A stretch of 64,000 nt of DNA from Prochlorococcus sp. AG-335-A05 (GTDB taxonomy: Bacteria; Cyanobacteriota; Cyanobacteriia; PCC-6307; Cyanobiaceae). The stretch covers positions 57,450 through 121,449 of the forward strand of contig QBZF01000001.1 in the NCBI GenBank assembly GCA_003282425.1. Direction: 5' to 3'. The notes under the pieces were generated by a model. The model saw nothing but the letters and a program-made list of their open reading frames with translations, had not been told where the DNA came from and made no database searches. The translations under genes were made by a program, and so were the position numbers. Every line of letters starts with the position of its first letter. Within the stretch, counting starts at the first letter, position 1. Positions 2,709-59,506 of this stretch are shown piece after piece.

Positions 2709-3641
2709 GTGGTCAATGCTAGTCTAAATTGGGCGAGTATTGTAGGCATCGTACTAGCTGTATGTGGAGGTGGCCTATATTTTTTGAGGTCATTTAAACC
2801 CGCGCTGGCAAGAGATTATGATGTTTTCTTTGCGGCAATAGGTCTTTTATGCGGGGGGATATTGTTTTTTCAAGGATGGAGATTAGATCCTATTTTGCAA
2901 TTTGGGCAGTTTTTATTAGCAGGAACTACAGTTTTCTTTGCATATGAAAGTGTTCGATTAAGAGGTGTTGCTACTGACCAAGCAAGAAGATCTTCTTATT
3001 TTGAAGATGATCAGATTCCAGATATGCCTAGAAATTCTTCTAGAAATAGATTTAGTGATGATTATGATCAATTTGAAGATTCTGATAGACCTTCTAGAAG
3101 ATTCAAACCTCAAGATGATGACCTAGAAGATGATTATATGCAAGGTAGATCGCAAAGGAGAAATATATCAAGAGCTATTCCTGAGTCTGCAGTAAGCAGA
3201 AGACGTCCTTCTTTAAGAGAGTCTAATCAATTTGAGAATGACGAACCTAAGAGAAGAAGAAATCGGTCTGAAGATAATAGGATGAGTAATGAAGATAGAA
3301 GAGGAAGTTTTGGAGAAAGAAGATCATCAAGAAGTGAAATAAAAAGAGGTTCTCGGCCATTATCTAATCAAGAAGTTTCTAGAAAATCAAATACTTCCTC
3401 TTTTAAGGATTCTTCTCCCTCCTCTAACAAACCAACAAGATCATCCATAAGATCTCAGACTTCAAGAGAAAAAGTAGAAGATGCATCATTTTCTACAAAT
3501 ATAAATGAAGTAAAAAAGCCTCGTCAAACAAGAAGCACAGCAGCTAGTGCAAGATCAACCTCTAAAAATAAAACTGGAAGATATACTGTAGGAACAAAAA
3601 AAAATAAACCCAGAGATAACAGCTCTAGATTTGATGACTAA
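2709..3641 (+). CDS. ycf66: Ycf66 family protein with long disordered tail
   Basis: Residues 1-90 contain three hydrophobic segments with the Ycf66 pattern NWASIVGIVLAVCGGGLYFLRSFKPALARDYDVFFAAIGLLCGGILFFQGWRLDPI (key residues at about 7-62). From about residue 95 to the end (310) the chain is a highly charged, Arg/Ser/Asp-rich low-complexity region with runs such as RRRPSLRES and RRSSRSE and no predicted fold. The start is the GTG at 2709, eight bases after GGAG (2698-2701). Ycf66 proteins are conserved in cyanobacteria and some plastids and have no assigned function. It follows psbX on the same strand and converges with an HLIP gene with no gap. Confidence 0.82.
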   Translation: MVNASLNWASIVGIVLAVCGGGLYFLRSFKPALARDYDVFFAAIGLLCGGILFFQGWRLDPILQFGQFLLAGTTVFFAYESVRLRGVATDQARRSSYFEDDQIPDMPRNSSRNRFSDDYDQFEDSDRPSRRFKPQDDDLEDDYMQGRSQRRNISRAIPESAVSRRRPSLRESNQFENDEPKRRRNRSEDNRMSNEDRRGSFGERRSSRSEIKRGSRPLSNQEVSRKSNTSSFKDSSPSSNKPTRSSIRSQTSREKVEDASFSTNINEVKKPRQTRSTAASARSTSKNKTGRYTVGTKKNKPRDNSSRFDD

Positions 3642-3875
3642 TTAAAATATCCCAGTCCAATTTAGAAATGATTTTTGACTTATTAATTCAATTAAAATAA
3701 TTGCTAAAAATCCTAGCATTGCGAATCTTCCATTTGTTATTTCTGAATAATTGCTCCATCCAAACTTATATTTATCTTCAATTTCAATTGTTTGCTCATC
3801 AATTTGCATTTCTTCCGAATTTGTTTTATCTACATCCATAGTATCCTCATTATTTTGTTCTTGATTTGAATTCAT
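3642..3875 (-). CDS. hli: High-light-inducible protein (HLIP / SCP)
   Basis: A 77-residue one-helix member of the Lhc/HLIP superfamily. The chlorophyll-binding helix carries the signature EITNGRFAMLGFLAIILIELI (about residues 45-65). An acidic N-terminal extension of about 40 residues precedes it (NNEDTMDVDKTNSEEMQIDE). HLIPs bind chlorophyll and carotenoid in the thylakoid and protect PSII under high light or nutrient stress. Its stop codon abuts the stop of ycf66. Together with the shorter copy at 32.0 kb it represents two HLIP types in this window. Induction by light is expected from the family; no operator is obvious. Confidence 0.88.
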   Translation of the reverse strand: MNSNQEQNNEDTMDVDKTNSEEMQIDEQTIEIEDKYKFGWSNYSEITNGRFAMLGFLAIILIELISQKSFLNWTGIF

Positions 3876-3884
3876 GATTGTAAT

Positions 3885-5924
3885 CTAATTTTTAAAATTA
3901 TACTTATCGGTAGTAAATAATTTCCAGTCTCCTTTCCCATTTAATTCTAAAATATTCTCATGAAAATCCTTTAAACTTGGCCTATGACCAACGCTTATCA
4001 ACGATAATTCCCTATCTCTTAAGAGATTATATAGTTTTTTTTCAGTTTTAATATCGAGTGCACTAGTTGCTTCATCTAGCACAGCAAATCTCGGAGAATT
4101 CAGTAGTAATCTAGCAAAGGCTAATCTTTGCTGTTCTCCTAATGAAAGTATTCTTGGCCAATCTTGTTTGATGTCAAGGTTAGGATATCTATCAACAATA
4201 GAATTTAAATTTACTTCATTAAGAACAGAAATTAAGTGGTCATCACTAAATTTCTCAACTTCTGTTGGATAACATAATTGTTCCCTTAAAGAACCTAATA
4301 GCATATATGGTTTTTGAGGTATAAATAGCAAATCACCTGTTTTTGGCTTTTTAATTGATCCTTGATTGGGTTCCCATAATCCACTGATCATTCTTAATAA
4401 AGATGTTTTGCCACAACCAGATGGGCCTACTACTAATAATGATTGATTTGTTTCGATACTCAGATTTAAATTTTTGATGATAGCTTTATCAGATCCAGGT
4501 GGGTAAAGATCAGCATCGTTGATAAGGATAGAAGAATAATCTAAAATTATATTTTGATTGTCTATCGGTTTGTTTTGACTGATACTTTCAACTTTTGACT
4601 GAAAACCCTCTAATCTTCCAATTCCAGCTGTGAACTTTGCTAGTTCCTCTATTTGATTAACTATAAAAAACAGCGAACCTTCTACCATTCCAAATGCAAA
4701 GCTTGCCTGAATAAATCGACCATAATCAATATCTCCTCTAAAATAAGGAATTGCCATTATTAGATATGGAAAGAAGTTGCCCGCATAATTAATAGAACGT
4801 CTCATTACATCAATAATTACCCTCCAAATTATTAGTAAGTTAAAGTTTCTTACCACTTCTCCTAATCTTCTCTCTGTTTCACTTTTTTCTGGTTTTTCAC
4901 CTGAATAAAAAGCTATGGATTCAGCATTATCTCTAATATGCACTAATCCATATCTGAAATCTGCCTCATACCTAAGTTGATCGAAATCAATTTTTACAAG
5001 ATTTTTTCCAGCAATTAAAAGGATAGCAGTAGCAAATGCTGCGTATCCAAATAATGAAAAGGTTAATGTCGTACTAATACTCCATAAAATGAGAATGTTC
5101 AGAGAAAAAGTAAGAAGTGCATCAAAAACTCCCAGAGTAAAGGATAAGCTTTGACCAGTAAAAGCTCTTGTATCATCTGTTATTCGTTGGTCAGGATTAT
5201 CTACATCAGTTTGCTCTTCATCATTAGGATTTAGTTGGTAGTATGCCTTATTCGTCATATAGTCTTTAACTAAGCTTTTTGAAAGCCAATCTCTCCAAAT
5301 TATTCCTAATTTATAGGTAAAAAATATTTGAGAAACCCTAATTGGGAGTGCTATAGCAAAGCAACAAGCATAGATTCCTAAAATTCTATAAAATCCATCT
5401 TCTTGTTTTTCTACTAAAGCATTTGTTAAGTCTCTTGCAATAAATCCTATTCCTGCATTAATTCCATTTACTGCCAAAAGCATTAATACTATGACTGCCA
5501 GAAATAACCAATGAACCCATCTGCGATTCTTGAGTTGACGCCTTAAACTAAAAAAACTTCCTGAACCAATAAGAAATAATCCTGAAAACAATAATCCCCA
5601 CCAGCCAGACCATATTGTATTAACAGTATTAACTACTCCTCCAAAGTATTTATCAAGAAAAATAGGTTGAATGCTTTCAAAAAAACTAATTATGCCTGTA
5701 AGGACTACAAGAACAATACCTCCCACACAAAATAAAAGAGAGATTAAAAGCCATATAAATTGAAAGCCATTACATTGATCAATAGGTAAAAAAAATGGTT
5801 GGGCTAACCTTCTTAACTTTTGTAATTGATAAAATATTCTAGATTTATTTTGTACTACATTATTCATATTTTTTCTATATCTTTTTATTAAATAGATTAT
5901 ATCTTTATTATGATTATTGCCCAA
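3885..5924 (-). CDS. ABC transporter, fused membrane and ATPase domains (SbmA/BacA-like, COG4178)
   Basis: The 679-residue half-transporter has six or so membrane helices in residues 1-420 and one nucleotide-binding domain in residues 470-679. It shows Walker A GPSGCGKTSLLRM, signature LSLGEQQRLAFARLLL, Walker B FAVLDEATSALD and the H-loop SVGHR. The membrane region (ARDLTNALVEKQEDGFYRILGIYA, RWRVIIDVMRRS-type segments) is of the ABC_membrane_2 type shared by SbmA/BacA and peroxisomal fatty-acyl transporters. Substrates for the cyanobacterial members are not established; very-long-chain lipids, peptides or vitamins are possible. Its ATG at 5924 overlaps the upstream 92-residue gene by 11 bases, and Met20 at 5867 is an alternative start. 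Confidence 0.85.
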   Translation of the reverse strand: MGNNHNKDIIYLIKRYRKNMNNVVQNKSRIFYQLQKLRRLAQPFFLPIDQCNGFQFIWLLISLLFCVGGIVLVVLTGIISFFESIQPIFLDKYFGGVVNTVNTIWSGWWGLLFSGLFLIGSGSFFSLRRQLKNRRWVHWLFLAVIVLMLLAVNGINAGIGFIARDLTNALVEKQEDGFYRILGIYACCFAIALPIRVSQIFFTYKLGIIWRDWLSKSLVKDYMTNKAYYQLNPNDEEQTDVDNPDQRITDDTRAFTGQSLSFTLGVFDALLTFSLNILILWSISTTLTFSLFGYAAFATAILLIAGKNLVKIDFDQLRYEADFRYGLVHIRDNAESIAFYSGEKPEKSETERRLGEVVRNFNLLIIWRVIIDVMRRSINYAGNFFPYLIMAIPYFRGDIDYGRFIQASFAFGMVEGSLFFIVNQIEELAKFTAGIGRLEGFQSKVESISQNKPIDNQNIILDYSSILINDADLYPPGSDKAIIKNLNLSIETNQSLLVVGPSGCGKTSLLRMISGLWEPNQGSIKKPKTGDLLFIPQKPYMLLGSLREQLCYPTEVEKFSDDHLISVLNEVNLNSIVDRYPNLDIKQDWPRILSLGEQQRLAFARLLLNSPRFAVLDEATSALDIKTEKKLYNLLRDRELSLISVGHRPSLKDFHENILELNGKGDWKLFTTDKYNFKN

Positions 5925-57676: not shown

Positions 57677-57725
57677 GATTTACCCCTTGTCATAAGGTAC
57701 ATGTAAGAGTTAAATTTTTATATGT

Positions 57726-57797
<72 letters not shown>

Positions 57798-57822
57798 TTT
57801 AAAAGTCAAGAAAAGTCATACT

Positions 57823-57847
57823 AAGTCACCCTTAGGTGACTTTTTTT
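57823..57847 (+). terminator. Rho-independent terminator after tRNA-Asn
   Basis: AAGTCACC (57823-57830) pairs with GGTGACTT (57835-57842) around CTTA, followed by T7. It is inside the islet, so it may have been brought in to end the tRNA transcript. Confidence 0.85.
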
Positions 57848-57892
57848 ATGTCTGTGAAACAGTTATGAGAGAAAAATATCTAGACGAACAAT

Positions 57893-57960
57893 GACACTTT
57901 AATCTAATTGTGTTCGTCTATTATTCGTCTTTTTATTCATCTTTTGAAATCCTATTCGTC
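57893..57960. repeat. Cluster of TTCGTC motifs, left side
   Basis: TTCGTC occurs at 57913-57918, 57924-57929 and 57955-57960, with an inverted copy GACGAA at 57893-57898 and a degenerate ATTCATC at 57935. Two more copies lie near the right end (59401, 59413), in the same orientation. Such clusters near att repeats could be recombinase arm sites; this is inference. Confidence 0.5.
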
Positions 57961-57985
57961 CATTATTTTTATCACTTATAAGACA

Positions 57986-58090
57986 TAAAAAAAAGACCAC
58001 TATTTCTAGAGGTCTTTTCTAATTTTACCGAATCAAGTGTTTCCTTGTTTCCACTGTTTCAGTAAAAACTTTCCTTCACACACATAAACA
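57986..58090 (-). ncRNA. Predicted Yfr2-like small RNA
   Basis: Minus strand. A 10-bp stem TTTTACTGAA / TTCGGTAAAA (58067-58058 with 58032-58023, one G-U) encloses a loop with two GGAAACA motifs (58052-58046 and 58044-58038, one base apart). Tandem GGAAACA in a loop is the hallmark of the Yfr2-type sRNA family in marine cyanobacteria. A terminator, GACC / GGTC stem at 58014-57995 then T8, follows. Upstream is TTGTCC (58125-58120), a 17-base spacer and TATAAG (58102-58097), so transcription probably starts near 58090. The 5' leader contains TATGTGTGTGA (58086-58076), complementary to the loop of the next sRNA. Confidence 0.55.
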
Positions 58091-58096
58091 TTATGC

Positions 58097-58125
58097 CTTA
58101 TATTTCTTTTTCGTGGAAGGGACAA
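58097..58125 (-). promoter_or_regulatory. Predicted promoter of the Yfr2-like RNA
   Basis: TTGTCC (58125-58120), 17-bp spacer, TATAAG (58102-58097), on the minus strand. The 22-bp palindrome is centred about 60 bases upstream of the predicted start, where activator sites commonly lie. Confidence 0.5.
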
Positions 58126-58138
58126 AAGGAATGTTACT

Positions 58139-58160
58139 AAACTGTCACATGTGACAGTTT
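58139..58160. promoter_or_regulatory. 22-bp perfect palindrome, candidate operator
   Basis: AAACTGTCACA at 58139-58149 is followed directly by its exact reverse complement TGTGACAGTTT (58150-58160). It lies between the two predicted sRNAs. Its TGT-N8-ACA core resembles CRP/FNR-type sites in layout, but I cannot name a regulator. Confidence 0.7.
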
Positions 58161-58183
58161 CCTTTTTCTGGATATATGGCAAT

Positions 58184-58250
58184 AAAAAAACATCCTAATT
58201 TAAAGAAAAGGATGTTTACTTATCAGAAATATGTGTGTGAGGAGTTTCTG
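58184..58250 (-). ncRNA. Predicted Yfr1-motif small RNA
   Basis: Minus strand. ATCAGAAA / TTTCTGAT (58252-58245 with 58229-58222) makes an 8-bp stem with the loop CTCCTCACACACATA. ACTCCTCACAC is the core of the conserved Yfr1 RNA. Here most of it is displayed in a hairpin loop, unlike standard Yfr1 where it is unpaired between two hairpins. A terminator follows: AAACATCC / GGATGTTT (58217-58210 with 58195-58188), then T-run. Upstream TTGTTC, 16 bases, TATATA (58259-58254) fit a promoter, with the start near 58248. Standard yfr1 in Prochlorococcus lies by guaB-trxA, not here, so this would be an additional copy. Confidence 0.6.
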
Positions 58251-58300
58251 ATGTATATAACCTACTGGATAAAGGGAACAAATATCTACAGTATTAATTC

Positions 58301-58495
58301 CTATTTCTTTTTCCAAAATAAGTAAAGATTTGAAAATTGGTTTTTAGTGTCCACAATTGCGGTGCTTGTTGAGATCAATTTCCATCCAGAAGCATTCCTT
58401 TTATTGATAATTGATGCAATTTCATTCTCTTGTCTTTGAGTATTTGCATTTCCTGCTGCGTAATAGATATCAAGATCATTTTTTACATTTGACAT
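58301..58495 (-). CDS. Small DUF4177-like protein of the islet
   Basis: A 64-residue protein starting MSNVKNDLDIYYAAGNANTQ, with an end ASGWKLISTSTAIVDTKNQF then LYLFWKKK. The GWKLIS...LFWKK pattern resembles DUF4177-like proteins (unknown function). An upstream ATG at 58519 would add eight residues. It lies on the minus strand upstream of the Yfr1-motif RNA. Confidence 0.55.
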   Translation of the reverse strand: MSNVKNDLDIYYAAGNANTQRQENEIASIINKRNASGWKLISTSTAIVDTKNQFSNLYLFWKKK

Positions 58496-58588
58496 ATTTA
58501 AATGTGTTGGTTTATTCAAAGTTAATATTACTCAATCTTTCATCGATACTTGAGTGAATTCGATAAGGTTATTGGAAATAAGTATTGT

Positions 58589-58693
58589 ATGGTTTTACCT
58601 TCACCTCAAATTACAATTGGATTATTGCTTATAAGTATTGGAATAGTCGTAACTTTTGATATCAAAATTGATTTATTTAAAGGTAAAGAGTAA
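58589..58693 (+). CDS. Very small membrane peptide of the islet
   Basis: A 34-residue ORF: MVLPSPQITIGLLLISIGIV then VTFDIKIDLFKGKE, giving one membrane helix. It is followed by another small ORF and by a strong terminator. It is weak evidence for coding, but the hydrophobic pattern is regular. Confidence 0.4.
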   Translation: MVLPSPQITIGLLLISIGIVVTFDIKIDLFKGKE

Positions 58694-58710
58694 AAGATTT
58701 CTAATGCTTT

Positions 58711-58833
58711 ATGGAAAAGGAACCTAATTACGACAATGATGGATTAGATCCATCCGAAGAATATTTTAAAGGAAAAGGTAATGATGATGATACCTATTCC
58801 CCTCCAGAAGAATCAGAACCACCACACTATTGA
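58711..58833 (+). CDS. Very small acidic protein of the islet
   Basis: A 40-residue acidic ORF: MEKEPNYDNDGLDPSEEYFK then GKGNDDDTYSPPEESEPPHY. It is low-complexity with no recognised domain. A perfect terminator lies 35 bases downstream and supports a transcribed unit (58589-58890). Confidence 0.4.
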   Translation: MEKEPNYDNDGLDPSEEYFKGKGNDDDTYSPPEESEPPHY

Positions 58834-58867
58834 GCAAAAGGAAATTTATTGACAGTCAATTTACATT

Positions 58868-58893
58868 AGAGGGTATAACTACCCTCTTTTTTT
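58868..58893 (+). terminator. Rho-independent terminator within the islet
   Basis: AGAGGGTA (58868-58875) pairs perfectly with TACCCTCT (58880-58887) around TAAC, followed by a T-run. Confidence 0.9.
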
Positions 58894-58894
58894 A

Positions 58895-59023
58895 ATGTCC
58901 ATTAATACATTTCTTTTGCTGTTATTTGTAATTGCGAATTACATAAACTTATTTTTAAATATAAAAAATAAAAAAAATGATTGGAAGGGTTTTGTTTTGG
59001 GGTATAATCAAGAATTTTCATAA
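58895..59023 (+). CDS. Possible 42-residue membrane peptide
   Basis: ORF of 43 codons: MSINTFLLLLFVIANYINLF then LNIKNKKNDWKGFVLGYNQE. One helix. It begins just at the end of the preceding terminator and has no good Shine-Dalgarno, so it is doubtful. Confidence 0.3.
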   Translation: MSINTFLLLLFVIANYINLFLNIKNKKNDWKGFVLGYNQEFS

Positions 59024-59078
59024 AAAATAAACTATCATTTATAGAATCAATGAAAATAAAAATAATACCAAATATTTA

Positions 59079-59396
59079 ATGTTGCGACTTCTTCCACTAC
59101 CGATTTTTATTTGCATTTATCTATTCTCTTGGTGGAGATGTAAAAAAAATATTATCGCTAGTGATAAGCAACTAAAACCATGCATTGATTGGGCATATGT
59201 AAAAAATTTACCTCTCCCACCAAAACCTTCATTTATCGAGTTTTATATTGTTTATGTTTCTTCTTTTTTTAAATTTCCCTTTGGGATAATTGTTCAACAA
59301 CTACCTTTCTCAAAGAAAGTAAGATATTACGAAAGAGAAATGAAATTAATATTTGATAAATGGAATTTAGAAAAAATTAAAAAAATAAAAAACTAA
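59079..59396 (+). CDS. Membrane protein of the islet, unknown function
   Basis: A 105-residue protein with an N-terminal helix (LRLLPLPIFICIYLFSWWRC) and a second hydrophobic segment near 55-70 (FYIVYVSSFFKFPFGIIV). The tail is basic. I do not recognise it. It ends five bases before a TTCGTC pair and about 95 bases before the right att repeat. Confidence 0.55.
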   Translation: MLRLLPLPIFICIYLFSWWRCKKNIIASDKQLKPCIDWAYVKNLPLPPKPSFIEFYIVYVSSFFKFPFGIIVQQLPFSKKVRYYEREMKLIFDKWNLEKIKKIKN

Positions 59397-59400
59397 TTTA

Positions 59401-59418
59401 TTCGTCAAAATATTCGTC
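59401..59418. repeat. TTCGTC motif pair near the right end
   Basis: TTCGTC at 59401-59406 and 59413-59418, the second within TATTCGTCCATT, which is also present near the left end (57953-57964). Same orientation as the left cluster. Confidence 0.5.
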
Positions 59419-59491
59419 CATTTTCTTATTTCTTTCATATTTGTGATGACATATCGCTTCATATCAAGACATATTTTATTAAGTGCTCGAA

Positions 59492-59506
59492 CGCCCGGGG
59501 AGTTTA
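59492..59506. repeat. Right att-like direct repeat
   Basis: CGCCCGGGGAGTTTA, identical to the end of tRNA-Asn at 57787-57801. Upstream TCGAA is shared too, with three bases missing between. Confidence 0.8.

Follow-up and report, generated by a model that had tools for sequence, protein, structure and literature searches.

A new copy of the Yfr10-Yfr2 small RNA tandem in a tRNA-Asn-bounded islet of Prochlorococcus

The two neighboring small RNA genes that we analyzed in Prochlorococcus sp. AG-335-A05 are almost certainly a copy of the Yfr10-Yfr2 tandem known from this genus. They lie on contig QBZF01000001.1, in a stretch of 64,000 nucleotides that was analyzed as a whole and is called the window here. 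Both the tandem and the interaction of its two RNAs have been described in the literature, and the pair in the window is a new copy of that tandem; the novelty is its islet context beside a tRNA gene, which is a modest addition. Our survey adds that the tandem occurs widely across the genus, that the complementarity of its two RNAs is a property of the families rather than of each locus, and that at least the copy in the window sits in a tRNA-bounded insertion. The observation in the initial annotation, made from the sequence alone, was partly confirmed, and its interpretation was partly supported. For the pair, we computed the gene order, the motifs, the structures and the potential to base-pair, while binding, titration and RNase E effects in this strain would follow by analogy with strain MED4. 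The features are collected in Table 1.

The first gene of the pair gave a full-length match (1-78) to the Rfam covariance model of Yfr10 (RF02362), exceeding the gathering score. In the predicted fold, a 5' hairpin carries the Yfr1 motif in its loop and is followed by a terminator hairpin, which was absent from the pattern-scan terminator list of the window. The predicted loop is 15 nt long, with an unpaired probability of at least 0.98 throughout the motif CTCCTCACACACATA, and this motif contains the segment TCACACACATA noted earlier. The RNA had been described as a Yfr1-motif RNA. The motif does lie in the loop, but the RNA is Yfr10 by Rfam: RF02362 matched and RF01116 (Yfr1) did not. RF01116 had no match in this genome, whose assembly is 54% complete. 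Both RNAs have the CUCCUCACAC motif in common; in Yfr1, however, it lies between two hairpins, whereas in the Yfr10 studied here it lies in a loop atop a stem, and the Yfr1 gene is flanked by trxA and guaB in most genomes.

Yfr2 follows Yfr10 on the same minus strand, with 89 nt separating the Rfam matches. Its match to RF01701 (Cyano-1) runs from 58085 to 58016 on the minus strand and covers the whole model (1-69 of 69) with 58.6 bits against a gathering score of 41; the first hairpin contains the GGAAACA repeat, and GGAAACAAGGAAACA is present. In MED4, the 5' end of Yfr2 was mapped at 346828 by RACE (PMC1242208), and the CATATT box of that strain lies 6 nt from this end. Transferred to the window, the MED4 end falls at 58083 when the -10 boxes are aligned and at 58081 when the downstream sequence is used. 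Therefore, the 11-base leader segment would have its first three to five bases (TAT or TATGT) outside mature Yfr2, although they would be present in a co-transcribed Yfr10-Yfr2 precursor. Within mature Yfr2, the 11-nt match is predicted to shrink to 8 (or 6) nt, plus GGA/TCC. The concern that the leader segment lies upstream of the true start thus applies, by MED4 homology, to its first three to five bases and not to the rest.

Table 1 Features of the Yfr10-Yfr2 pair and its islet (window coordinates)
Feature	Position	Strand	Remarks
tRNA-Asn (GTT), insertion target	57725..57798	+	
15-bp direct repeat CGCCCGGGGAGTTTA, proximal, att-like	57787..57801	+	overlaps tRNA-Asn 3' end
TATTCGTC repeats, proximal, arm-site-like	57922..57960 (57922, 57953)	+	
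Yfr2-family sRNA gene	57989..58083	-	5' end by MED4 homology (possibly 58081), terminator to 57989
Segment TATGTGTGTGA	58076..58086	-	58083-58076 in predicted Yfr2 transcript; 58086-58084 upstream
yfr2 putative -10 element CATAAT	58090..58095	-	position matches MED4 CATATT
Palindrome AACTGTCACATGTGACAGTT, perfect, 20 bp	58140..58159	.	between yfr10 and yfr2, upstream of yfr2
Yfr10 sRNA gene (RF02362)	58175..58252	-	92.8 bits in Rfam against a gathering score of 43; E 1.5e-13
Terminator hairpin of Yfr10, with the beginning of the T-run	58188..58217	-	predicted fold
Yfr1/Yfr10 loop motif CTCCTCACACACATA, conserved	58230..58244	-	predicted unpaired; motif per PMC2518516
ORF, 72 aa	58301..58519	-	upstream of yfr10; weak DUF4177-like, below cut-off
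ORF, 105 aa	59079..59396	+	adjoins distal end; mobile between Prochlorococcus loci
TATTCGTC repeats, distal, arm-site-like	59399..59418 (59399, 59411)	+	
15-bp direct repeat CGCCCGGGGAGTTTA, distal copy, att-like	59492..59506	+	

This arrangement is well described in MED4. There, Yfr2 lies immediately downstream of Yfr10 in genomic island 1, a 270-nt co-precursor was seen, the pairs Yfr10-Yfr2, Yfr12-Yfr4 and Yfr18-Yfr5 are adjacent and complementary, and in 2008 the 5' end of Yfr2 was proposed to pair with the Yfr1/Yfr10 motif (PMC2518516). The initial annotation had taken a linked complementary pair to be undescribed, which this publication contradicts. In 2019, pull-downs, GFP reporters and protection from RNase E demonstrated the pairing in MED4, with footprint data as well: Yfr2 pulled down Yfr1 and Yfr10 and vice versa, Yfr2 blocked the binding of ppa mRNA by Yfr1/Yfr10 and relieved the repression of a PMM1121 reporter by Yfr1 in E. 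coli, and Yfr2 was protected against RNase E by Yfr1 or Yfr10 (PMC6778093). The suggested sponge relation has therefore been demonstrated in MED4 by pull-down, ppa block and reporter rescue. Yfr10 homologues were also reported to be encoded upstream of Yfr2 homologues in HL strains (PMC6778093). The pairing of Yfr1/Yfr10 with Yfr2 forms the center of a published small RNA network in carbon and nitrogen metabolism.

We compared the window pair with the MED4 locus (346661-346921; Steglich 2008, Lambrecht 2019). In genome G015, our Yfr10 match at 346661-346738 reproduced the published MED4 coordinates, and a Yfr2 match came next, at 346826. Gene order, strand and spacing were the same in both loci, as were the loop motif, the complementary 5' leader, the terminators and the intergenic palindrome. 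The loci differ in their surroundings (island 1 in MED4, a tRNA-Asn islet in the window), in the leader (GUGUGUGAAGGAAAG in the window, GUGUGUAGGAG in MED4) and in the bulged base, which is on the Yfr2 side in the window and on the Yfr10 side in MED4. In the MED4 pairs Yfr18-Yfr5 and Yfr12-Yfr4, which occupy other loci, a Yfr2-family RNA likewise comes directly after a Yfr1-motif RNA; the interval is shorter in Yfr18-type pairs (about 60-69 nt between Rfam matches).

Rfam matches placed at least 113 same-strand Yfr10-Yfr2 pairs in at least 93 of the 151 genomes of the genus, with a spacing of 60-69 or 80-99 nt between matches in nearly all pairs listed. In most pairs of the class with the longer interval, the palindrome AACTGTCACATGTGACAGTT is conserved and stands upstream of yfr2 at a constant spacing; it is a candidate transcription-factor site, possibly a CGRE1/GntR site. 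Among 100 loci fetched, 97 had a Yfr1-type motif followed, 147-188 nt downstream, by a Yfr2 hairpin, counting L165, whose motif is doubtful; the three left out had a motif below the mismatch limit (L101), ran off the contig end (L164) or contained no detectable Yfr2 (L138). In named genomes, at least 118 stretches had the motif-plus-leader pattern, and those listed were almost all from Prochlorococcus. One metagenome-assembled genome (HNLC1, L242) had two such pairs of motif and leader, separated by about 850 bp.

Sequence checking agreed with the perfect complementarity noted initially: TATGTGTGTGA (58086-58076, minus) and TCACACACATA (58240-58230, minus) are exact reverse complements over 11 nt. 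One segment is in a loop and the other in a leader, as had been stated; both are predicted to be unpaired, and both lie within Rfam-scored RNA genes. Co-folding of Yfr10 with Yfr2 (from 58083) gave 11 intermolecular base pairs, arranged as 7, one bulged base and 4 in the minimum-energy form; an equivalent duplex has 8 bp, the bulge and UCC/GGA, and the extension past a one-base bulge was thereby recovered. Depending on which Yfr2 start was used, the energy of the duplex was -14.2 or -18.5 kcal/mol; that of the MED4 duplex was -16.4 kcal/mol, computed with a shorter segment of the leader. The window leader has GGAAAG in place of GGAG, which makes its CUCC-side pairing weaker than in MED4. In the proposed mechanism, Yfr10 would present CUCCUCACACAC in its hairpin loop and bind mRNAs through it, and Yfr2 would present GUGUGUGAAGGA, a single-stranded 5' tail complementary to that loop. 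A trans duplex of about 11 bp, interrupted by one bulged base (8 bp, bulge, UCC/GGA), would let each RNA titrate the other, and the pairing would shield Yfr2 against RNase E.

The 11-nt match might have been a functionless product of chance. The window contains 23 inverted 11-mer pairs 20-165 nt apart, and 20 first-order Markov shuffles of it gave 15.3 ± 4.5 such pairs, counts that rule out significance of the match by itself. Its weight comes from the family-wide conservation of the motifs and not from its rarity: both segments are conserved interaction motifs of two RNA families, kept in about 97 loci, and their pairing has been demonstrated in MED4 (PMC6778093), which makes a chance origin extremely improbable. 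Alternatively, the pairing may act chiefly in cis, with a long-range stem in the precursor hiding both motifs or directing processing. The predicted fold of the precursor (about 264 nt, -76.6 kcal/mol) joins both segments including TAT, a precursor of this kind is the one reported in MED4 (PMC2518516), and a perfect run of 11 nt, upstream bases counted, was present in only 2 of 96 loci; this copy is one of them, and its run needs bases beyond the predicted mature Yfr2. However, the extension upstream of the start is unconserved, and perfect runs in most relatives reach 6-7 nt with upstream bases included. Moreover, orphan Yfr2 genes, such as the second Yfr2 of this genome, which has no Yfr10 motif nearby, together with a distant Yfr1 locus, point to trans pairing as the general mode. 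We consider a chiefly cis role unlikely and favor pairing in trans.

The tight same-strand linkage and the strong complementarity would also suit a cognate pair that co-evolves at its own locus, such as the antitoxin-like pair proposed initially. Covariation was checked by swapping partners across 96 loci. Results showed that the Yfr10 loop paired with the leader of its own neighbor at a mean of -15.75 kcal/mol, with leaders of other genomes at -15.73 kcal/mol (permutation 0.34) and with shuffled leaders at -9.13 kcal/mol; own and swapped pairs did not differ inside either distance class. The longest perfect run with mature leaders was slightly longer for true neighbors than for swapped partners (5.99 vs 5.84, permutation 0.0024), but we discounted this as evidence of cognate matching because the genomes are related and shared ancestry can explain it. 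The motif is nearly constant, and leaders of either type, GUGUGUAGGAG or GUGUGAAGGAG, pair with it; the change of type is accommodated by a shift of the bulge from Yfr10 to Yfr2. Since neighbors pair no better than swapped partners, the Yfr10/Yfr2 complementarity is a family property that shows no locus-specific co-evolution. The swap test speaks against a co-evolving cognate pair, which we now hold to be barely credible, and leaves the antitoxin-like reading unsupported. No toxin reading frame was identified at the pair, where only short ORFs occur. Pairing in trans between members of two RNA families remains the preferred reading.

The placement of the pair on an islet was borne out. The insertion of 1.7 kb (57787-59506) extends from tRNA-Asn to a 15-bp duplicate of the tRNA 3' end, so that the same repeat stands at both ends; past the distal repeat, the sequence matches what follows the respective islets in MED4 and G008. 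TATTCGTC occurred six times in the window against 1.0 expected, and four of the six copies are near the inner ends of the islet. No recombinase-sized ORF was found inside the islet, and neither Pfam, above its cut-off, nor PHROGs gave a match for the 105-aa and 72-aa ORFs. Matches to the 105-aa ORF were present in 90 of 151 genomes, mostly at 85-100% identity and at differing chromosomal sites; in six genomes (this one, G000, and G015, G031, G089, G123 and G143) it lies near a Yfr10-Yfr2 type pair. We rejected the idea that phages carry the RNAs: viral contigs contained no exact match to the Yfr10 loop stretch or the Yfr2 hairpin and no relatives of the 105-aa ORF, and distant blastn searches of phage records returned, among the matches listed, tRNA-Asn-like ones only. 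The islet was most likely acquired by site-specific insertion. We only infer its mobility, because it lacks a recombinase and excision was not observed; if it is mobile, the excised circle would be joined at CGCCCGGGGAGTT.

The left 0.56 kb of the islet matched Yfr2-Yfr10 islets of G042, G077 and G143 at 76-80%, and the right 0.5 kb shared 95% identity with the end of a compact islet that is present in G057 and G143 and has the same 105-aa ORF and repeats. The two parts resemble different islet types, which makes the window copy look like a fusion of both. In G143 (L332, about 3442-5300 from the tRNA end), a compact islet with the 105-aa ORF is followed directly by a yfr2-yfr10 stretch. That genome has three tandem tRNA-end repeats, and such repeats separate tandem islets.

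Tycheposons and other tRNA-targeted islets of Prochlorococcus likewise have insertion at a tRNA, a duplicated tRNA 3' end, variable cargo and repeats near their ends. Tycheposons are reported to be 4-200 kb long and to occur with a tyrosine recombinase (PMC10872708), whereas the window islet, tRNA-targeted and with a partial tRNA repeat, has 1.7 kb and no recombinase gene, short of the 4 kb minimum. The att-like repeat, the arm-like TATTCGTC repeats at both ends and the 105-aa companion gene tentatively suggest that Yfr10-Yfr2 may travel as cargo of small recombinase-less integrative islets inserting at tRNA-Asn, a reading to which we give slightly less than even weight. If true, it would explain how a regulator-and-sponge pair spreads, multiplies and moves between Prochlorococcus genomes, and the tRNA-islet context suggests a way, open to testing, in which yfr2 genes could have come to vary in position and copy number, as noted previously.

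The tRNA-Asn site is a recurrent insertion hotspot. It is nearly empty in G105 and G132, where the conserved downstream ORF starts about 130 bp past the tRNA end, and it holds a 1.5-kb islet with a polysaccharide-lyase-like gene in MED4, a 1.0-kb islet with a pilin-like gene in G008 and islets of about 5 kb with one large gene each in G032 and G111. A Yfr10 match lies within about 5 kb of this tRNA-Asn in nine genomes. The large gene of G032 (L320 283-5118, minus) encodes a 1612-aa type ISP restriction-modification enzyme, and G111 has a similar ORF of 1623 aa; the site thus also carries defence genes.
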